Notes under the pieces: model-generated
Database searches by the model: none
What the model saw: the letters and a program-made list of their open reading frames with translations, nothing else
Told to the model about the DNA's origin: nothing
Shown here: positions 2,440-34,525 of the stretch, piece after piece
Numbering within the stretch: the first letter of the stretch is position 1
How the letters are laid out: every line of letters begins with the position of its first letter
Assembly: GCA_017631085.1 (NCBI GenBank)
Contig: JAGBTY010000026.1
Coordinates: 1-34,588 of the forward strand
From: Clostridia bacterium
GTDB lineage: Bacteria > Bacillota > Clostridia > Oscillospirales > CAG-272
DNA: 34,588 nt
Direction of reading: 5' to 3'
Made by a program: the position numbers and the translations under genes

Positions 2440-3201
2440 ATGAGAATTGCTATCGTTACAGGAGCATCTTCGGGCATAGGACGTGAGTTCGCGGAACGTC
2501 TCGCCAAACGTGAAGACATCGAAGAGGTTTGGATAATTGCAAGAAGACTTGATGTTCTTGAAGAAATGAAAAATTTAATAAATTCAAAATTTGTTCCGAT
2601 AGCATTGGATCTTTCTGAAAAGAAGGATGCTGAAAATTACAAATATATGTTATCGAGTAGAAATCCTGAGGTAGCCGTTCTCGTCAATGCCGCAGGGTAT
2701 GGGAAATTTGGAGCGGTCGAAAACGTAGGGCTTGAAGAGCAGTGCGGTATGATAAAGCTTAATGCGGAGGGTCTTACCCGCGTCACCTATTATACTATAC
2801 CCTTTATGGACGACGGAGGAGAAATATATCAGATAGCATCTTTGTCAAGCTTCTTTCCTGTTCCTTATATATCCGTATACGCAGCGACTAAAGCCTACGT
2901 TCTTAGCTTCTCAAGGGCGTTGAACGTTGAGCTTAAGAAGAGAAAGATTCGTTCCATGGCAGTATGTCCGGGGTGGGTAAGGACCGACTTCTTTGACAGA
3001 GCGGTTGAAGACAACGGAGTTATCGTTTACTACAACAAATTCGTAACGGCGGAGCAGGTCGTGAAGAGAGCATTTAGGGATATGAAAAAGAAAAAGGACG
3101 TATCTGTTCCCGCAAGGTCAACAAGAATGCTTATTCGCTCGGCAAAGCTATTGCCTCACAGGCTCGTTATGAAAATATGGTGTAAGCAGCAAAAGAAATA
3201 A
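2440..3201 (+). CDS. Short-chain dehydrogenase/reductase (SDR) family oxidoreductase
   Basis: A 253-residue classical SDR with an N-terminal Rossmann fold. The cofactor-binding TGASSGIG sits at 7-14, the structural NAAG at 83-86, and the catalytic YxxxK is Tyr147/Lys151 (VYAATKAYVLSF) with a serine in the preceding IASLSS strand. ARR at 34-36 after beta-2 would favour NADP(H), an inference. CPGWVRTDF is the usual loop after the catalytic helix. The last ~40 residues are basic and may mediate membrane association, as in related YqjQ/DltE-like SDRs. Substrate unknown. It follows pfp by 54 bp with no terminator between, so it is probably co-transcribed; the strong terminator comes right after it. 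Confidence 0.85.
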   Translation: MRIAIVTGASSGIGREFAERLAKREDIEEVWIIARRLDVLEEMKNLINSKFVPIALDLSEKKDAENYKYMLSSRNPEVAVLVNAAGYGKFGAVENVGLEEQCGMIKLNAEGLTRVTYYTIPFMDDGGEIYQIASLSSFFPVPYISVYAATKAYVLSFSRALNVELKKRKIRSMAVCPGWVRTDFFDRAVEDNGVIVYYNKFVTAEQVVKRAFRDMKKKKDVSVPARSTRMLIRSAKLLPHRLVMKIWCKQQKK

Positions 3202-3233
3202 AAAGTATAATATCATATAATTTAAATTGAATA

Positions 3234-3308
3234 AATACGGAGAATTCCATGCGCCTAACAGTGCTGAAAAACACAAATTGTTTTATGCGGAATACTCCGT
3301 ATTTTTTT
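3234..3308 (+). terminator. Rho-independent terminator after the SDR gene
   Basis: A long imperfect stem begins AATACGGAG (3234-3242) and closes with CTCCGTATT (3295-3303), extended inward by an ATTCC/GGAAT pairing. It is followed by an uninterrupted T-run to 3308. It ends the pfp-SDR transcript. Confidence 0.85.
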
Positions 3309-3335
3309 GCCCGTTTTTGCTAATACTGTTATAAA
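3307..3335 (+). promoter_or_regulatory. Possible promoter of the spoVAF-like gene
   Basis: TTGCCC (3307-3312), 17 bp, then TATAAA (3330-3335) resembles a weak sigma-A promoter that overlaps the tail of the preceding terminator. A forespore sigma-G promoter would be expected for a spoVAF-type gene, but I could not identify one convincingly. Confidence 0.35.
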
Positions 3336-3361
3336 ATAACGATATTGCTTTGGGTGGTACA

Positions 3362-4765
3362 ATGAAAAAATTAGGCATTGATTATAAAGAAAATCTCTCG
3401 ATCTTAGAGAGAGAGCTGCGAGTGAAGGATAGCTTTGACGTTCTGTGCAAAAAAATACTCATAGGAAAACAAGAAGCGGCAATTTATTTTATTGACGGAT
3501 TTATCAAGGACACTGTTATGCAAAAGCTAATGATGCATATGATGTCTGCCAAAAACGTAGGAAACAGCGCAAGGGAGTTTATGAGGGTGAGTATCCCTTA
3601 CGTTGAGACCGACGTTACGGACGATCTTGAGCTGATGGTACAGATGGTCATGTCGGGTACTGCTGTCATGATAGCCGACGGATTTGGCGATGAAGCGGTT
3701 ATAATAGATGCACGGACATATCCTGCAAGGCAGACAGAAGAGCCTGAAGGCGACAGAGTCATGAGAGGACCGAGAGACGGCTTTGTTGAAACTCTTATAT
3801 TCAATACAGCTCTTGTCAGGAGGAGGATAAGAAATCCTTCTCTTACAATGGAATATTACACGGTGGGGAGTGATTCGCGAACCGACGTGGTACTTTCCTT
3901 TATGGCGGATCGTGTGGATATGAAATACGTGGAGCTTTTGCGAAAAAAGCTCGGCTCATTAAAATGCACGTCGCTTACCATGGGACATGAGTCGCTTGTG
4001 GAAATGCTTATCCCGAACAAGTGGTACAATCCTTTTCCGAAGGTAAGGACTACTGAGCGACCTGATTCCGCTGCATCGCAGCTTCTTGAGGGAAGTGTGT
4101 TGATACTGATAGATAACAGTCCTCAGGTGCTCGTGCTTCCGTCTACCATATTTGATTTCATGCAGGAATCGAATGATTTTTATTTTCCACCTCTGACCGG
4201 AACGTATATAAAGCTTGTTCGATATAGCGTTTTCTTCTTAACTCTTGTGCTGATACCTCTTTGGTATCTCGGGACTCTTTATCCTGAGCTCGTTCCCACA
4301 TGGCTCAGCTTTTCTTTGCCTGAAGAAACGGGGAAGCTGCCGCTTATCGCTCAGCTCTTTTTAGCCGAATTTATTATTGATGCATTAAGACTTGCTTCAC
4401 TCAACACCCCGAACATGCTGAACAATTCCTTGTCGGTGGTAGGCGGATTGATACTCGGAGATTTTGCGGTGGGCATCGGTTGGTTGATACCGGAAGTAAT
4501 TCTTTATATGGCTTTCGTGGCAATTGCTAACTTTACCCAAAGAAGCTACGAGTTAGGATATGCTATAAAATTTTTGCGTCTGTTGCTGCTTGCCTTAACA
4601 GCACTTTTCCGCGCGTGGGGATTTATAGGAGGACTTGTGTTATGTATCATTCTTTTACTCGCAAATTCTACACTTAACGGAAAAAGAAACTATGTTTATC
4701 CGCTTATACCCTTCAATTTTAAAGCTTTAAAGAGCCTTGTGGTCAGGACAAAAAAGAAGATGTGA
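3362..4765 (+). CDS. SpoVAF/GerA-family spore germination protein
   Basis: A 467-residue membrane protein of the GerA family, expected in the spore inner membrane where germination signals trigger ion and dipicolinate release. The soluble N-terminal half carries the family signature GPRDGFVETL with N-x2-LVRRRI (about 137-158). Hydrophobic helices begin near residue 285 and fill the C-terminal part. The block LNTPNMLNNSLSVVGGLILG and the PEVILYMAFVAIANF and SYELG motifs resemble SpoVAF more than GerAA. Length is close to SpoVAF (~490). I chose ATG 3362, 7 nt after GGGTGG, over an in-frame TTG at 3350. It stands alone: no spoVA genes and no gerB or gerC partners lie beside it. Exact subfamily is an inference. 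Confidence 0.85.
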   Translation: MKKLGIDYKENLSILERELRVKDSFDVLCKKILIGKQEAAIYFIDGFIKDTVMQKLMMHMMSAKNVGNSAREFMRVSIPYVETDVTDDLELMVQMVMSGTAVMIADGFGDEAVIIDARTYPARQTEEPEGDRVMRGPRDGFVETLIFNTALVRRRIRNPSLTMEYYTVGSDSRTDVVLSFMADRVDMKYVELLRKKLGSLKCTSLTMGHESLVEMLIPNKWYNPFPKVRTTERPDSAASQLLEGSVLILIDNSPQVLVLPSTIFDFMQESNDFYFPPLTGTYIKLVRYSVFFLTLVLIPLWYLGTLYPELVPTWLSFSLPEETGKLPLIAQLFLAEFIIDALRLASLNTPNMLNNSLSVVGGLILGDFAVGIGWLIPEVILYMAFVAIANFTQRSYELGYAIKFLRLLLLALTALFRAWGFIGGLVLCIILLLANSTLNGKRNYVYPLIPFNFKALKSLVVRTKKKM

Positions 4766-27238: not shown

Positions 27239-28660
27239 ATGTCGATAGCTAATACGCATTATGGCAGAGAGAAGATCGCTCAAATGCTAACGGAATGTAA
27301 TAACATATTTTTTATCGGCATAGGCGGGATAAATATGTCCTCTCTGGCAGAGCTTTCAAAAAAGAGAGGATATGGCGTTGGGGGCTCTGACCGTGTAAGA
27401 AGTGAAATATGTGAGAGACTCGAGAGGAGTGGACTTGAAATCTTTTACGGACACTCTAAAAATAATCTGCAGGGCTATGACGCAGTCGTTTATACCGTCG
27501 CAATATCCGAGGACAATGAAGAATACGTTGAGGCTTGTCGGAAGGGCTTGCCGCTTATATCCAGAGCCGATTATATGGGATACATAATGTCAGAATACAA
27601 AAGACGTGTTGGTATTTCGGGAATGCACGGAAAAAGTACTTGTACCTCAATGTGCGCAAAGGTATTTATGGACGCAGGTGTCAGCCCCACTGTTTTATCA
27701 GGAGCAGAGCTTTCAGAGATGGGTGGAGCATATGTTTTGGGAGAGGGAGAGGATATTATCTTTGAGGCATGTGAATATATGGACTCTTTTCTTGACTTCT
27801 GTCCGAATATCTCGGTAATACTTAATATAGAAATGGATCACGTCGATTACTTCCACAGTATAGAGCAGATAAGAGGCTCATACAGACGCTTCGCAGATAT
27901 TGCTCTTCCGTCGGGTGTGGCTGTGGCAAATCTCGATGATGAGAACGTGCGAATGGCTCTTGATGGATATGAGGGCGAGGTCGTTGGATTTGGAATTGAC
28001 TCAAATGACGCCAGGGTCAGAGCCAAAAATATTAGCTCACAAAACGGAAGATACAGCTTTGAGCTTGTTTTGGACGGAGAAAGTAAGGGAATGATCTCTC
28101 TTGGCGTTTCGGGACGTCATAATATATATAATTCGCTTGCCTGTGCGGCAGTCGCAGATAAATGCGGTATTTCTATGTCAGATATAAAAAAAGGCATAAA
28201 GAACTTTTCAGGTGCGCACAGACGCATGGAATATAAAGGCCAGATAAGGGGAGCTGATATATACGACGATTACGGACATCACCCTACCGAGATAGCGGCA
28301 ACACTTGAGGGAGCGAGGGGAATGACCGAAGGACGCCTTTTTTGCGTATATCAGCCACACACCTATTCCCGTACAGCATCGCTATTTGATAGCTTTGTCA
28401 CTTCCTTTGAAAAGGCGGACAGAGTTATTTTCGCCGATATATATGCTGCGCGCGAGAAGAATGTATATGGAGTTTCCTCAGCCTCGCTTGCCGAGAAGGT
28501 CGGAGATAAGGCTGTATTTGCCGAGAGCTTTGAGCGTATCTCCGAAATCCTCAAAAGCGAACTCAAGGCTGGAGACGTGGCGATAATAATGGGCGCGGGA
28601 GACATATATAAAGTGTTTGACACATTGAATCCTATGATGAAAGGGGATGACGGGACGTGA
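27239..28660 (+). CDS. murC: UDP-N-acetylmuramate--L-alanine ligase
   Basis: A 473-residue Mur ligase adding L-alanine to UDP-MurNAc in cytoplasmic peptidoglycan precursor synthesis. N-terminal UDP-binding FIGIGGINMSSLAEL (24-38); P-loop GMHGKST at 128-134, with Met where Thr is usual; central EACEYMDSFLDFCPN and LNIEMDHVDYF; C-terminal YDDYGHHPTEIAATLEGAR and VYQPHTYSRT. All three Mur domains are present. AAAGGAAG RBS. Heads an operon with a methyltransferase whose GTG overlaps its stop. Confidence 0.96.
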   Translation: MSIANTHYGREKIAQMLTECNNIFFIGIGGINMSSLAELSKKRGYGVGGSDRVRSEICERLERSGLEIFYGHSKNNLQGYDAVVYTVAISEDNEEYVEACRKGLPLISRADYMGYIMSEYKRRVGISGMHGKSTCTSMCAKVFMDAGVSPTVLSGAELSEMGGAYVLGEGEDIIFEACEYMDSFLDFCPNISVILNIEMDHVDYFHSIEQIRGSYRRFADIALPSGVAVANLDDENVRMALDGYEGEVVGFGIDSNDARVRAKNISSQNGRYSFELVLDGESKGMISLGVSGRHNIYNSLACAAVADKCGISMSDIKKGIKNFSGAHRRMEYKGQIRGADIYDDYGHHPTEIAATLEGARGMTEGRLFCVYQPHTYSRTASLFDSFVTSFEKADRVIFADIYAAREKNVYGVSSASLAEKVGDKAVFAESFERISEILKSELKAGDVAIIMGAGDIYKVFDTLNPMMKGDDGT

Positions 28661-29453: not shown

Positions 29454-30353
29454 ATGAACGAAAAGGCATCATCAACAATTCTCAGAGCTATGACCTCTGA
29501 CGGAAGTGCAAGAATACACGTTATAAATTCCACCGAAATGGTGAACAAAGCAATAGAGATACACAAAACGACGCCCACTGCCTCGGCAACACTTGGCAGA
29601 CTTTTGACGATAACGTCTATTATCGGCTGTATGCTTGGTGAGAAGGAAAATACGGTAACAGTTACTATTGGCGGTGACGGACCTGCGGGCAGGGTTATAG
29701 CGGTAGGAGATTATTACGGCAACGTTAAGGGATACATCGGAAACCCCCAAGTAGATATTCTCCTTAAGAGCAACGGAAAGCTTGATGTCAGCGGAGCGGT
29801 GGGACACGGTCTGCTGACGATAATTCGAGATATGGGAGACGGCGAACCATATACGGGCTCTATACCCCTTGAGAGTGGAGAGATAGCCGAGGATATTGCG
29901 GCATATTACGCAAAGAGCGAACAGATACCCACTGTGTGCGCGTTGGGAGTTCTTGTTGATACTGACTACAGCTGCAGATCCGCGGGGGGCGTTTTGATAC
30001 AGCTGTTGCCCTTTGCAAATCCCGATACTGTAACGGCAATTGAAAATAACGTCTCAAAGCTTGCAAATATATCAAGACTCTTCGACAGGGGACTTACAAA
30101 TAAAGAGATCGCGGATATTGCTCTTGAAGGAGTTGAATTTGACGTTTTCGATGAGCTATACGTAGATTATAGCTGCAATTGCACTCGTGAGAGGGTTGAA
30201 AAGGCTCTCATAACTCTTGGTAAGAGCGAGCTTTACAAAATGCTTGAAGAGCAAAAAAGCGAAGGAAAGGGCGAGACTTTAGAGGTTTCGTGTCGTTTCT
30301 GCGGAAGGAAAGAGCGCTTTGATGCAAAGGATATAGAAAAAATGTTTTCTTGA
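29454..30353 (+). CDS. hslO: Redox-regulated chaperone Hsp33
   Basis: A 299-residue cytosolic holdase activated by oxidative unfolding. The N-terminal domain has [15 protein letters not shown], and [11 protein letters not shown] is conserved. The C-terminal redox switch is intact: Cys241-x-Cys243 (CNC) and Cys280-x2-Cys283 (CRFC), which bind zinc in the reduced form. ATG 29454 follows AAAGGAAAG; an upstream in-frame start at 29394 overlaps the methyltransferase and is rejected. The next gene starts 18 nt downstream, so hslO and the AAA+ pair are probably co-transcribed. Confidence 0.95.
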
Positions 30354-30371: not shown

Positions 30372-32762
30372 ATGGATAACGCTAAAACCCAAAAGATATT
30401 TATTGATGAAAAGAAACAGAATATAGTATTTATCTCTTTCTGTGCAACAGCTTTGATCCTTAGCATAATTATGCTGTTTTTGCCTATCATATCATATGTG
30501 CTGGCTGATGGAGACCTTGCACGTACAGCCTCTCCAATAAGCTTTGCAGCTATGCTGAATGATTCTTATCTGGTAGAGACGGGAGCAGCATTTATTATGC
30601 TTGGCGCATTCATTGTATGGTTTGCGTTCACACTTGCTGTCTTTGTATTTGGAATAAGAGCAGTAATATCGGTATTTTCAGATAAGAAGGCTCTTCCCAA
30701 GGAGACTAAAAGAGCAATTATGTGCATGACCTTTTTGCTTTGCGCTCTTTTTATGATCGCGGTCATTGCTACGGTGATCAGCAAAATAAATCTGGGTTCA
30801 TGGAACATTATCGTTAATCTTCCATTGTATATAACGGTTGTTGTTATTGACTTGATATTTGCCGTAGTTTACGGATTTGCAAAGCCATCACGTTCGGACG
30901 GTAAGGGCAACGATGAGAGAAGCGTGGAGTATGAAAAATGCAAACGGACAAGTATGTTTGCAAGACTTGAGCTGCTTTTGTTTGCTATTGTGACGTCTGT
31001 TGTGTCGGTAATGGCTATGCTGTCAAATCTTCTTACAATAGACGTTATCGTGGAGAAAACGGAGGAGATATATTCTACAATTAAGGTTTCGGGTTGGCAA
31101 TTCCTGACAGATGACAATATCTTCAAGGACGGCGGATATATGGTAAGATTTTTCCTATTTGCCATGCTGCTGATAGTTCTGTCTATGGTCTTCTTGTCTC
31201 TTGTGTCCTTCCTCGGACGGTCATCGCTGTTTTATAAGATAAATCTTTATTCCATCGGCTTCAGCTCGGTGTCCTGCTTACTTGTGGGGCTTTTCGGTAA
31301 ATATTATCAGATAGTAGATGCTATGAACAAAAACTATGTATTGTCATATACAGAGGACTATCTTGGAGCTTTCGAAGAGATCATTCCACAGTACGTATTA
31401 GAGGTCAAAAGCACAGCGTGGTATTTCTTCCTTGGTGTTCTCGGAGTTTTGGCAGTGCTTTTGCTTCGTCATCCGTATACCAGAGGTATCGGCGCGGAAA
31501 ATAAGATGGCAAGCCTTAGCGACGAATCAACTATAAAGATAAGCGGAGGAAATCTCAAGGTCGCTCAAGACGAGGAAGAGGCTGGGGCATTTGCTCATTC
31601 GATGCAGGTGGCTTCCGCCATGAGCCCCTCTGATCCTTCGAGTGTGGTAGGCGATCCTTGTCCCGCATTTACCGAAATAGATATGAAGCTCCCTTCATTT
31701 GAAGAAGAGCTGGCAAAGAAGAGAGAGGCGTTGTTTGAGGCGCCGACATTGCCGAAGCTCGTACAGTTTATCGTGGATTATGCCCGTGACAGCAGACTTC
31801 ACCTTTCATATACTCCTGAGGATATTGCGACATTTGTTGCAGGACTTGGTACGACAAGACTTTCTATCCTTCAGGGTATGAGCGGTACAGGTAAGACAAG
31901 TCTTCCAAAGATATTCGCAGAGGCTTTGATGTCTGTCTGTGATATTGTGGAGGTGGAATCTTCTTGGAGAGATAAGAGCGAGCTGCTTGGATATTACAAT
32001 GAATTCAGTAAGACATACACACCCAAAAAATTCACTCAGGCTCTTTACAGGGCAAGACTCAATTCGGAGGTCTTGACATTTATTGTGCTTGACGAAATGA
32101 ACCTTAGCCGTATTGAGTACTATTTCTCCGATTTTCTGTCTCTCATGGAAAACGAAGAAGATAAGAGAGAGATAAAGCTTCTGAACGTTGGCCTTAAAAG
32201 AATTGAGGGCAACAAGGTCGTGTCATATAGAGGACTTGTTGGAGGACATACCATAAAGATACCTAAAAACGTATGGTTTGTTGGAACGGCAAACCGTGAC
32301 GAAAGTACATTTGAAATAAGTGACAAGGTATATGACAGAGCCAATACGATGAACTTTAACAAGCGTGCGCCTAAAGTAACTTATCACAATGAACCGATCC
32401 CGCAGAGATACATCTCTCCCGATGTTCTTACACGTTTGTTTGATGAGGCAAAGCTCAACGTTAATTTCAATATTGATTCTTATTCTGCCATAGCAGAGGT
32501 CGAAAAGCTGTTAGCTCCTTATAATATTTCCTTTGGTAACCGTGTGGCAACGCAGATAGAGAGCTTTGTAAGCATTTATTGTTCATGCTTCACAATGACC
32601 GAAAGCGTTTTGCATAACGCAGTCGAGACCATACTTCTCAGCAAGGTCGTAAGCAAGCTTGAGCTTAAGAGTATAGATGACAAGGAACAGCTCGCGGCAG
32701 AATTTGAAAAGCTTAAATTCTACAAATGCAGCGAATTTATAATGAATATCAATGAGGTCTGA
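30372..32762 (+). CDS. Membrane-anchored McrB-like AAA+ ATPase
   Basis: A 796-residue protein of two parts. Residues ~1-370 hold about eight hydrophobic helices (near 18-44, 70-96, 112-136, 145-167, 199-220, 257-285, 290-310, 345-368). A polar linker follows, then an AAA+ domain from about 465: Walker A GMSGTGKTS (502-510), Walker B FIVLDEMN with Asp574-Glu575, and a GTANRDES motif (638-645), the counterpart of the McrB GTMNxxD signature. The AAA+ part fits the McrB/MoxR-like group; ordinary McrB carries a soluble DNA-recognition domain where this one has a membrane module. GGAGGG RBS; 18 nt after hslO. Function unknown; could be defence, stress response or membrane-protein remodelling. Confidence 0.82.
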   Translation: MDNAKTQKIFIDEKKQNIVFISFCATALILSIIMLFLPIISYVLADGDLARTASPISFAAMLNDSYLVETGAAFIMLGAFIVWFAFTLAVFVFGIRAVISVFSDKKALPKETKRAIMCMTFLLCALFMIAVIATVISKINLGSWNIIVNLPLYITVVVIDLIFAVVYGFAKPSRSDGKGNDERSVEYEKCKRTSMFARLELLLFAIVTSVVSVMAMLSNLLTIDVIVEKTEEIYSTIKVSGWQFLTDDNIFKDGGYMVRFFLFAMLLIVLSMVFLSLVSFLGRSSLFYKINLYSIGFSSVSCLLVGLFGKYYQIVDAMNKNYVLSYTEDYLGAFEEIIPQYVLEVKSTAWYFFLGVLGVLAVLLLRHPYTRGIGAENKMASLSDESTIKISGGNLKVAQDEEEAGAFAHSMQVASAMSPSDPSSVVGDPCPAFTEIDMKLPSFEEELAKKREALFEAPTLPKLVQFIVDYARDSRLHLSYTPEDIATFVAGLGTTRLSILQGMSGTGKTSLPKIFAEALMSVCDIVEVESSWRDKSELLGYYNEFSKTYTPKKFTQALYRARLNSEVLTFIVLDEMNLSRIEYYFSDFLSLMENEEDKREIKLLNVGLKRIEGNKVVSYRGLVGGHTIKIPKNVWFVGTANRDESTFEISDKVYDRANTMNFNKRAPKVTYHNEPIPQRYISPDVLTRLFDEAKLNVNFNIDSYSAIAEVEKLLAPYNISFGNRVATQIESFVSIYCSCFTMTESVLHNAVETILLSKVVSKLELKSIDDKEQLAAEFEKLKFYKCSEFIMNINEV

Positions 32763-32764
32763 TA

Positions 32765-34300
32765 ATGTCGCCAGCAAAAATAGTCCGTAATTTTGACGGG
32801 GAATACAGTGCTCTCGGACGGTTTGCTCACGAGCACCGTAATATCAGCTACGATGATTTTGACAGAGCTGTACTTGAGGAAATAAATTTGTTTATTGTTC
32901 CAAAGGACGAGACGTTTTTTGAACTTGAATCAGCTCTTGATAAGATAATAGCAACACTTCCCGCCATCAAACGAATTTTTACAAAGCCAATAACGAGACT
33001 TTCGGATACTAACAACGTTTTGCCCGTGGAAGCGGCAAAGGTGATAAACAATCAGTCGATGGTATATATTTCCCAGCACAGCGAGAACTGGGGGGATATA
33101 AAAAACGGCGAGCTTTATCCCAAAAAACTTATGACGATAGAGAGAATAGAGGATTATGCAACCTATGAAAATATAATTTTCGTCCGTTTCATTGACTTTA
33201 TACTGTCGTACGTAAAAAGAAATTTCAGACTTCTCAAGGACATAATGTATGCCAATAGAGAATTGAGCTTTAATCTTCTTGAATCTACAAATCATGTAAA
33301 TTACTTTCTTGCGCTTGGAAAGCTTCACATTGGTTATATAAGGGGCAGGGAGATAGATAACGCGGCTTATGAAAGATGTCTTGACAAGCTTTGGCTTATA
33401 GACAGAACTATCCGTTCAAAGCTCAATTCACACATATACCTTACCTGCCGAAAAAAGAAAACAGTCGATAAGCTGAAAAGAACTAATGTTTTTAGATTGC
33501 AGAAGGATTATAAGCAGATATATTCGCTTATAAGATGGTTTGGAGACAGGCATGATACCGATGAGCTTAGGTGGATGTCGTCGGAGGATTCAGAGTCGTA
33601 TCCCGAATACTGTGCAATATTGAGCGTGTTCGCCTTGGCTCATTTAAATTTCGATTTTTCTAATAATTCTATTGATTTTGTCGATGCAAAAGCGAAAGCA
33701 TCATTTCTTGAATGGAGCTTTGATATGTGTTCCCTAAGAGGAGAGGGAATAGAAGGACTTCTCTTATCCTTTTCAAAGGAAAGGTCTTACAGAATATGTC
33801 TTATATTCGGGCGGGAAGGGGATATGTCTGTCTCCGAGCTTGAAAAATTCCAAAAAGAAAATCAAGCGGAGGAATATCTGTTCGTTTCGTCCACCGAGTA
33901 CGGCAAGAAAAATTCGATATATCTCAGTTTGTTTGACGTTGACTCGTTCCGCAGAGTGCAACAGCTTGCTATCAGAGCAATGATATATTGTGATGAAAAA
34001 AGGGAAGTATGTCTTTTTTGCGGTCATGAGCTAACAAGGGATGAAACTACGTGTTACTGCAAGAAGTGTAGAACGCTTATTGAGGAAAAGACGTGTGATA
34101 CTGACGGCGGAAAATATTTCGTTAGCGGGATATATGACTATAAGCCAAAAATGCAAAACAGAGTAATACACAGGGACAGGTTTTTAACCGAAAAATTTAC
34201 GGAATCTCAAATGTTTTTCCGCAACATAACGAGCATCAACGCCGGAGGAGAGAACATATGCCCGAGATGCGGAAAAATTCATAAGGATCAATTAAAATAA
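32765..34300 (+). CDS. DUF2357/McrC-like partner of the AAA+ ATPase, with zinc ribbons
   Basis: A 511-residue soluble protein, 2 nt after the AAA+ gene and surely co-translated. The segment EDYATYENIIFVRFIDF (129-145) resembles the signature of DUF2357 proteins, partners of McrB-like ATPases that often carry a C-terminal PD-(D/E)XK nuclease. Here I find no convincing D...(D/E)xK arrangement; the only similar tripeptide is Asp307-Ala-Lys309 (FVDAKAK), without a clear partner acid. The C-terminus instead has a zinc ribbon (Cys416, Cys419, Cys432, Cys435) and a second knuckle (Cys499, Cys502, near His506). Family assignment is moderate; nuclease activity is doubtful. Confidence 0.65.
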   Translation: MSPAKIVRNFDGEYSALGRFAHEHRNISYDDFDRAVLEEINLFIVPKDETFFELESALDKIIATLPAIKRIFTKPITRLSDTNNVLPVEAAKVINNQSMVYISQHSENWGDIKNGELYPKKLMTIERIEDYATYENIIFVRFIDFILSYVKRNFRLLKDIMYANRELSFNLLESTNHVNYFLALGKLHIGYIRGREIDNAAYERCLDKLWLIDRTIRSKLNSHIYLTCRKKKTVDKLKRTNVFRLQKDYKQIYSLIRWFGDRHDTDELRWMSSEDSESYPEYCAILSVFALAHLNFDFSNNSIDFVDAKAKASFLEWSFDMCSLRGEGIEGLLLSFSKERSYRICLIFGREGDMSVSELEKFQKENQAEEYLFVSSTEYGKKNSIYLSLFDVDSFRRVQQLAIRAMIYCDEKREVCLFCGHELTRDETTCYCKKCRTLIEEKTCDTDGGKYFVSGIYDYKPKMQNRVIHRDRFLTEKFTESQMFFRNITSINAGGENICPRCGKIHKDQLK

Positions 34301-34314
34301 AAATAAAAAAATAC

Positions 34315-34343
34315 TTGACAAATAACATTTGGTGTGGTATAAT
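34315..34343 (+). promoter_or_regulatory. Sigma-A promoter P1 of the tRNA cluster
   Basis: TTGACA (34315-34320), 17 bp, TATAAT (34338-34343): both hexamers fully consensus, with an A-rich tract upstream. Lies 107 bp before tRNA-Val. Confidence 0.88.
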
Positions 34344-34395: not shown

Positions 34396-34424
34396 TTGAC
34401 AACAGTAAAAAGTTGTGATATAAT
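34396..34424 (+). promoter_or_regulatory. Sigma-A promoter P2 of the tRNA cluster
   Basis: A second full-consensus TTGACA (34396-34401), 17 bp, TATAAT (34419-34424). The two promoters are 81 bp apart, and between them lie direct repeats of ACTTTTTAAAAA. Confidence 0.9.
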
Positions 34425-34449: not shown

Positions 34450-34525
34450 GGGAGCATAGCTCAGTTGGGAGAGCATCTGCCTTACAAGCAGAGGGTCATA
34501 GGTTCGAGCCCTATTGTTCCCACCA
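34450..34525 (+). tRNA. tRNA-Val (anticodon TAC)
   Basis: A complete cloverleaf of 76 nt with encoded CCA. Acceptor GGGAGCA pairs with TGTTCCC (one G-T), D-stem GCTC/GAGC, anticodon stem TCTGC/GCAGA around loop CTTACAA, so the anticodon is TAC (Val). T-stem ATAGG/CCTAT with loop TTCGAGC. Discriminator A, then CCA at 34523-34525. Confidence 0.97.

Follow-up and report, generated by a model that had tools for sequence, protein, structure and literature searches.

Genes A and B, two adjacent genes close to the end of a 34,588-nucleotide stretch of DNA from Clostridia bacterium (contig JAGBTY010000026.1; the whole stretch is referred to as the window), encode a McrB-like AAA+ motor with a polytopic membrane domain in place of a soluble N-terminus and a McrC-like partner with a DUF2357 domain. 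The genes are located on the same strand, separated by 2 nt, and as the same layout is found in many genomes, they are a two-gene unit and not a chance arrangement. The parts are of known kinds; their combination in a polytopic two-gene form is the new aspect. The pair is tentatively read, with a probability somewhat below even, as a transmembrane McrBC-type nucleoside triphosphatase (NTPase) machine that would act at the envelope and would not cut nucleic acid. The pair and its parts are located as follows.

30372-32762, + strand: gene A, 796 residues, polytopic membrane domain and McrB-like (NxD) AAA+ domain (open reading frame (ORF) list, relatives, alignment)
30408-31541, + strand: A residues 13-390, membrane domain with eight helices (hydropathy, AlphaFold2, loop charges)
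31749-32759, + strand: A residues 460-796, AAA+ domain (matches NxD McrB proteins by profile)
31875-31898, + strand: Walker A motif GMSGTGKT, A residues 502-509
32091-32102, + strand: end of Walker B motif, DEMN, A residues 574-577
32283-32306, + strand: GTANRDES, A residues 638-645, the McrB signature motif in its NxD form (N-R-D)
32765-34300, + strand: gene B, 511 residues, McrC-like partner (ORF, Pfam DUF2357, AlphaFold2, fold list)
32792-33550, + strand: DUF2357-like domain of B, residues 10-262 (the Pfam match itself covers 61-161)
33149-33172, + strand: EDYATYEN of B, residues 129-136
33584-33997, + strand: B residues 274-411, nuclease-like domain that lacks conserved catalytic acids
34010-34282, + strand: zinc ribbons of B (residue conservation in 70 rows)

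Domains of A and B

A preliminary description, made from the DNA letters alone, had proposed about eight hydrophobic helices followed by an AAA+ domain in A. Indeed, eight hydrophobic segments were identified by hydropathy within residues 18-365, and long helices are present there in the AlphaFold2 model, so that a membrane module replaces the soluble N-terminus. Walker B and GTANRDES were found as described, and the Walker A motif was confirmed, although it comprises eight residues and ends at 509, not at 510. Walker A, N641 and D643 are invariant in 61/61 aligned rows. The NxD motif characterizes one branch of the McrB-like GTPases, and the NxD motor is called uncharacterized (eLife 2024, PMC11090510).

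A profile of the AAA+ domain matched three soluble NxD plasmid proteins, from Deinococcus, Rhodoferax and Nostoc, with E-values of 1e-46 to 1e-52 and K-12 McrB with 9.8e-10, compared to 0.048 for RavA, the sole MoxR-type protein in the comparison. Pfam AAA models matched A below their cut-offs only (AAA_5, 18 bits versus 22). MoxR-like proteins, dynein, McrB and RavA scored alike in the fold lists for A; therefore, the sequence profiles were used to choose. Because these favor McrB over RavA, a MoxR-type chaperone, the alternative named beforehand, was rejected. Judged by its profile, the motor of A is a member of the NxD branch of McrB-like GTPases and does not belong with RavA.

The AlphaFold2 model of A was built from 61 rows (mean predicted local distance difference test score 84.8, predicted template modeling score 0.53) and has a low-confidence linker (389-423) between the membrane part and the AAA+ domain. 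The modeled membrane domain consists of two alike halves, each with the order transmembrane helix (TM)-beta hairpin-helix-TM-TM-beta-TM, which also align weakly by sequence (hhalign E-value 6.8e-5, probability 63). An internal four-helix repeat is therefore likely from the model, although membrane composition alone could give the same signal. From the order of its elements the four-helix unit gave a claudin-like impression; the fold lists covered the AAA+ domain. The five inner stretches contain 18 K/R and 10 D/E, and the four outer stretches 6 K/R and 16 D/E. Since the inner loops are rich in K/R and the outer loops in D/E, the N- and C-termini of the membrane domain are predicted to be cytosolic.

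The membrane part shares a mean identity of only 19.5% with 60 relatives, compared to 67.6% for the AAA+ domain. Among 61 full-length A proteins, fewer than 11 helices precede the motor in 15 (exactly 8 in 13) and at least 11 in 46 (exactly 12 in 42). The membrane domain of the window protein had no Pfam match, and no Pfam family was found in more than two of the 61 membrane parts. When profiles of A and of the membrane part were compared with solved structures, mainly rhodopsin-like and other receptor-like proteins were obtained (best E-values 0.0018 and 0.028); these matches were attributed to composition.

In B, EDYATYEN is located inside a DUF2357 match above the Pfam cut-off (E-value 1.3e-6, 28.3 bits versus 23.3), as had been suggested. 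K-12 McrC was not matched by the B sequence profile (E-value 0.74) but was matched by fold: McrC structures occupied ranks 1, 3 and 4 in the fold list for the AlphaFold2 model, and the McrC-like fold extends over the nuclease-like domain. The pairing of a McrB-like AAA+ protein with a DUF2357/McrC relative is thus supported by profile search, Pfam and fold list alike. However, no conserved catalytic acids were found in the nuclease-like domain across 70 aligned rows. By this alignment B does not qualify as an active PD-(D/E)xK nuclease, the site apparently having been lost, and the term restriction module, which had been used for the pair, was dropped. The zinc-ribbon residues are strongly conserved in the same rows, with C416, C419, C432 and C435 in 70/70, C444 in 68, C499 and C502 in 67 and H506 in 62.

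Relatives, distribution and descent

A profile search of genome contigs with alignment A1 resulted in 307 relatives, of which the best 80 were used; a search of genome contigs with B alone found nothing. In 73 of these best 80 loci B directly follows A, five are cut by contig ends and two have a gene, named X, between the two in the order B-X-A. The carriers among the best 80 are uncultured Clostridia, Oscillospiraceae, Anaeroplasma, Acholeplasmataceae and other Bacilli; those not marked as metagenome-assembled are Paracholeplasma vituli 92-19 and Tenericutes bacterium MO-XQ. In the window genome, which is 88% complete, one A gene and one DUF2357 gene were detected.

The distribution of the pair is patchy. 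Strong matches to B were found in 16/395 genomes of the window family, the window included (E-value 1e-90 or better), in 5/13 genomes of the P. vituli family, in 13/55 genomes of an Anaeroplasma-containing family, fragmentary in two cases (E-value 1e-70 or better), and in 1/398 genomes drawn from the phylum, the one being the window itself. Furthermore, the three carriers of the window genus (window, L077 and L099) do not form one clade (approximately unbiased test, p-AU 1.8e-5 for B and 0.0135 for the AAA+ domain). The patchy spread and the trees that run against the genus therefore require either exchange between lineages or old duplicates with loss.

The order B-X-A was found in four loci (L145, L146, L229 and L230), all from one family of 74 genomes, 11 of which matched B (E-value 1e-25 or better). 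In all four, A is of the eight-helix kind. Three of the B proteins contain four CxxC pairs, and that of L230 contains none. Gene X is located as follows.

L145:4355-5347: gene X between B and A, lipoprotein-like, acidic-repeat
L146:4486-6018: gene X between B and A, lipoprotein-like, acidic-repeat
L229:6105-6815: gene X between B and A, lipoprotein-like, acidic-repeat
L230:9201-9782, - strand: gene X between B and A, lipoprotein-like, acidic-repeat

By eye, the N-terminal hydrophobic stretch of X ends close to a cysteine whose context resembles a lipobox. Beyond the N-terminus the sequence is acidic and helical-looking, in L146 with repeats at 84-nt spacing. The X proteins of L229 and L230 matched each other with E-values of 1e-29 to 1e-31, those of L145 and L229 with 2.6e-8 and 4e-4, L145 and L230 with 1e-4 to 1e-6, and L145 and L146 with 2e-4 to 2e-3. 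The proteins of L146 and L229 matched each other no better than decoys did (0.05 and 0.8), and no match was obtained between L146 and L230.

A second type of relative was observed in the window family, where 23/93 other genomes match A over the AAA+ part only. In 14 of these short-type genes, one or two hydrophobic segments were found in each. In two short-type loci (L055 and L060), four signal peptidases match TIGR02228 above its cut-off (E-values 1e-17 to 1e-28) and the SipW model below its cut-off only. The exported proteins of short-type loci look TasA/CalY-like, to judge from STYAWF-like signals; of the five with this appearance scanned from L055 and L060, none matched an NCBIfam model. 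Several other short-type loci resemble L055 and L060 by eye, whereas L056, L057 and L208 do not. Equated from the text of PMC11090510, the short-type loci fit CoCoPALM, membrane-tethered NxD McrB-like GTPases whose fuller description its authors deferred.

Some further arrangements were seen among these relatives. L056:7179-11679 and L057:5980-10157 contain McrB-partner-McrB triplets, in which two McrB-like genes with one or two TMs surround one DUF2357-like gene; both AAA+ domains of the L056 triplet are identical, and the triplets adjoin large exported-looking proteins. The signal-peptidase/McrB-like locus L060 is headed by a c-di-GMP phosphodiesterase-like gene (2526-3485, below the models' cut-offs), which hints that loci of this kind may be under c-di-GMP control. 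A viral contig (L201:7059-9029) contains a McrB-like gene with one TM and the motif GTMNEDES.

In the tree, 61 polytopic A proteins group in a single clade that excludes 15 short-type proteins. When soluble proteins were added, the polytopic clade grouped with a McrB-like protein of phage record MT835511.1 (support 97/94), and the B-X-A rows branched as the sister group of the remaining 15 polytopic rows. A joint clade of all membrane-tethered rows was borderline rejected (p-AU 0.0496; the set contains long branches). The added tree thus speaks, at borderline strength, against a single origin with the signal-peptidase-linked short type, and the membrane part may have been gained separately from that type. 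MT835511.1, a human-gut phage record marked UNVERIFIED, contains adjacent soluble NxD McrB-like and DUF2357-like genes (L236:3300-7845).

Genomic surroundings

In the window genome, A follows hslO by 18 nt in a murC operon, as had been described.

29454-30353, + strand: hslO (Hsp33), 18 nt upstream of gene A, not counted as part of the system

The identity of hslO is clear from its Hsp33 Pfam match (E-value 5.7e-85); Mur ligase domains were found in ORF 27239-28660, and the run that holds hslO, A and B starts with murC. Downstream of B, two perfect TTGACA-17-TATAAT promoters are arranged in tandem at 34315-34343 and 34396-34424, with TG preceding the second hexamer, and a tRNA-Val gene (34450-34525) is located just after them.

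The co-occurrence of A and B, one subject of the survey proposed in the preliminary description, was borne out, while a constant link to hslO was not: hslO is near the pair in three loci (window, L082 and L084) and directly upstream in the window only. A conserved link to hslO was rejected, and the A-B pair is regarded as accessory and not as a core one. The flanks vary between loci. An ABC-type ATPase, at varying places, makes up the largest recurring group (11 loci), and the other recurring neighbors reflect local synteny of related loci. A large exported-looking protein follows B in five loci and a release-factor gene precedes A in four, and no clear enrichment of membrane or exported genes was seen near the pair.

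In six related loci, one of them cut at a contig end, B is immediately followed by two small genes (∼168 and ∼220 residues).

L088:11765-12934: two small genes behind B
L092:3588-4634: two small genes behind B
L093:11850-13025: two small genes behind B
L095:11666-12850: two small genes behind B
L096:4252-5436: two small genes behind B
L097:11202-12368: two small genes behind B

No Pfam family matched the L095 copies. These genes could be further partners of the pair.

Few defense genes were found nearby. The 108 immediate neighbors matched 28 PADLOC families (E-value 1e-8 or better), a raw count with no background set, and each of the 25 families listed was found in one neighbor protein; in this raw comparison no defense-island setting was seen. 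A GmrSD-type gene adjoins the pair of P. vituli. No HEPN or other nuclease gene was present among the recurring neighbors or among the 25 of 94 Pfam families listed for the 108 neighbors, and no signal peptidase in the window operon or among the recurring neighbors.

Possible functions and known systems

If the pair acts at the envelope, A would form a ring, by analogy with McrB a hexamer, beneath a crown of membrane helices. B would enter this ring from the cytosol and turn on nucleotide hydrolysis, the activation by its DUF2357 part being expected from the analogy with McrBC (PMC11090510). The motor stroke would be passed to the membrane part, which would sense or move something at the outer face, where loops of A are predicted; the job may be the sensing, gating or moving of a surface or exported protein. 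As the membrane part is far less conserved than the motor, the variety sits where a partner or trigger would be met. In one branch this outer partner may be the lipoprotein-like X. Candidate triggers, suggested in the preliminary description, are membrane damage, phage entry or envelope stress. Conversion of a restriction motor into a transmembrane surface machine, with exported X as outer partner in this branch and the McrC relative as a switch only, is a possible but more doubtful extension of the envelope reading.

Ranking next, and likewise possible at less than even probability, is an anti-phage (abortive) defense, in which the membrane part would sense infection or form a pore that the B-activated motor opens, halting the cell before phage release. 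McrBC-family ancestry, the patchy spread, the carriers of the window genus that do not form a clade and the fast divergence of the membrane part are consistent with this. In addition, the AAA+ part of A matches the PADLOC candidate defense model PDC-M26A (E-value 7.8e-48), but the best-matching stretch lies within the AAA+ part common to these proteins, and the model is also matched by relatives from signal-peptidase loci. The PADLOC families near the pair are scattered, one neighbor each for those listed, again with no background set. Neither a phage collection searched with B nor the four plasmid records read (of 266) contained the polytopic form, and the single AAA+ match from the viral collection has one TM and is not polytopic. 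A role at the envelope is slightly preferred to a membrane-acting defense because X points to the outer face. Counting against this preference is the tree in which, of the AAA+ rows outside the family, the nearest is the soluble McrB of a McrB/DUF2357 pair on a gut phage record; this tree led to a small reduction in the probability of the envelope machine and of the surface machine with X, and to a small increase for defense.

The same tree made it less probable that the pair is a stand-alone relative of CoCoPALM, whose motor helps to assemble or release secreted fiber proteins encoded elsewhere in the genome, and this is now regarded as improbable. Both are membrane-tethered NxD pairs, and in the Paracholeplasma family a short-type DUF2357 protein was found in 5/5 genomes with the pair and 2/8 without. 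However, among 98 genomes of the window family a full short-type AAA+ match was present in 0/5 with the pair (one of which, G281, has one 180-residue short-type fragment, E-value 5e-6) versus 23/93 others, and in the larger draw from this family the short type was present in 2/16 versus 35/379. Dependence on a short-type locus in the same genome is thus mixed across the three draws, and the short type forms a separate clade, with the joint membrane-tethered clade borderline rejected. Very improbable is a housekeeping role, as partner of HslO or in wall synthesis, suggested by the place of A behind hslO in the murC operon of the window genome: hslO is directly upstream there only, the upstream ORF is on the opposite strand in 25/63 loci, the same-strand gap is 30 nt or less in 6/38, and the pair is present in Acholeplasmataceae, which have no cell wall. 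An active Type IV restriction system, in which B cuts nucleic acid, is equally improbable; the McrC-like fold of B includes the nuclease-like domain, but the catalytic acids are not conserved in the 70 rows.

McrBC is a classic defense against foreign DNA. In the branch described here, which spans Clostridia and Acholeplasma-like bacteria, no nuclease site is recognizable and the reading head is swapped for a polytopic membrane domain, which suggests that a known defense motor was given a new task at the cell surface. If this is true, the GTPase and its activator would be a general motor for which rewiring to the membrane is possible. The two-gene systems of P. vituli 92-19 and Tenericutes bacterium MO-XQ are suited for the study of an NxD motor with a nuclease-dead McrC.

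The pair had been put forward as an undescribed system. This applies to the polytopic two-gene form, as no description of a stand-alone polytopic, nuclease-dead McrBC was found in the literature searched, although the supplement of PMC11090510 may list it; the idea of a membrane-tethered NxD McrB is already in print there as CoCoPALM. PDC-M26A shares the AAA+ region with A, as do the signal-peptidase-linked relatives it also matches. From MoxR/RavA/NorQ-type AAA+ proteins A is set apart by the weak RavA profile match and by its partner, which is instead of the DUF2357 kind. The pair of MT835511.1 resembles A-B in its AAA+ row, its motif GTANQDES and its DUF2357-like neighbor, but no membrane helix was found in its McrB-like protein. 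Classical McrBC of E. coli K-12 shares the adjacent genes for an AAA+ motor and a DUF2357/nuclease-fold partner; its own features are an NxxD motif, a soluble DNA-reading domain and a nuclease in McrC (PMC11090510), whereas A-B has NxD, a membrane domain and no conserved catalytic acids. CoCoNuT has the NxD motif and a zinc-ribbon DUF2357 protein, which in Type II includes an inactivated PD-(D/E)xK domain; long coiled coils are present as well, and a nuclease, HEPN or another, is associated (PMC11090510). In A-B no recurring nuclease gene was found among the neighbor families listed and the N-terminal half consists of membrane helices, as judged without a coiled-coil predictor. CoCoPALM is similar to A-B in that an NxD McrB-like GTPase is joined to a membrane helix and accompanied by a DUF2357 partner, and it is distinguished by an FtsB-like helix with a coiled coil and by signal peptidase-family and pilus-type genes (PMC11090510). 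A-B, in contrast, has no recurring signal peptidase gene, carries 8-12 membrane helices, is encoded by two genes or in the order B-X-A, and forms a separate AAA+ clade.

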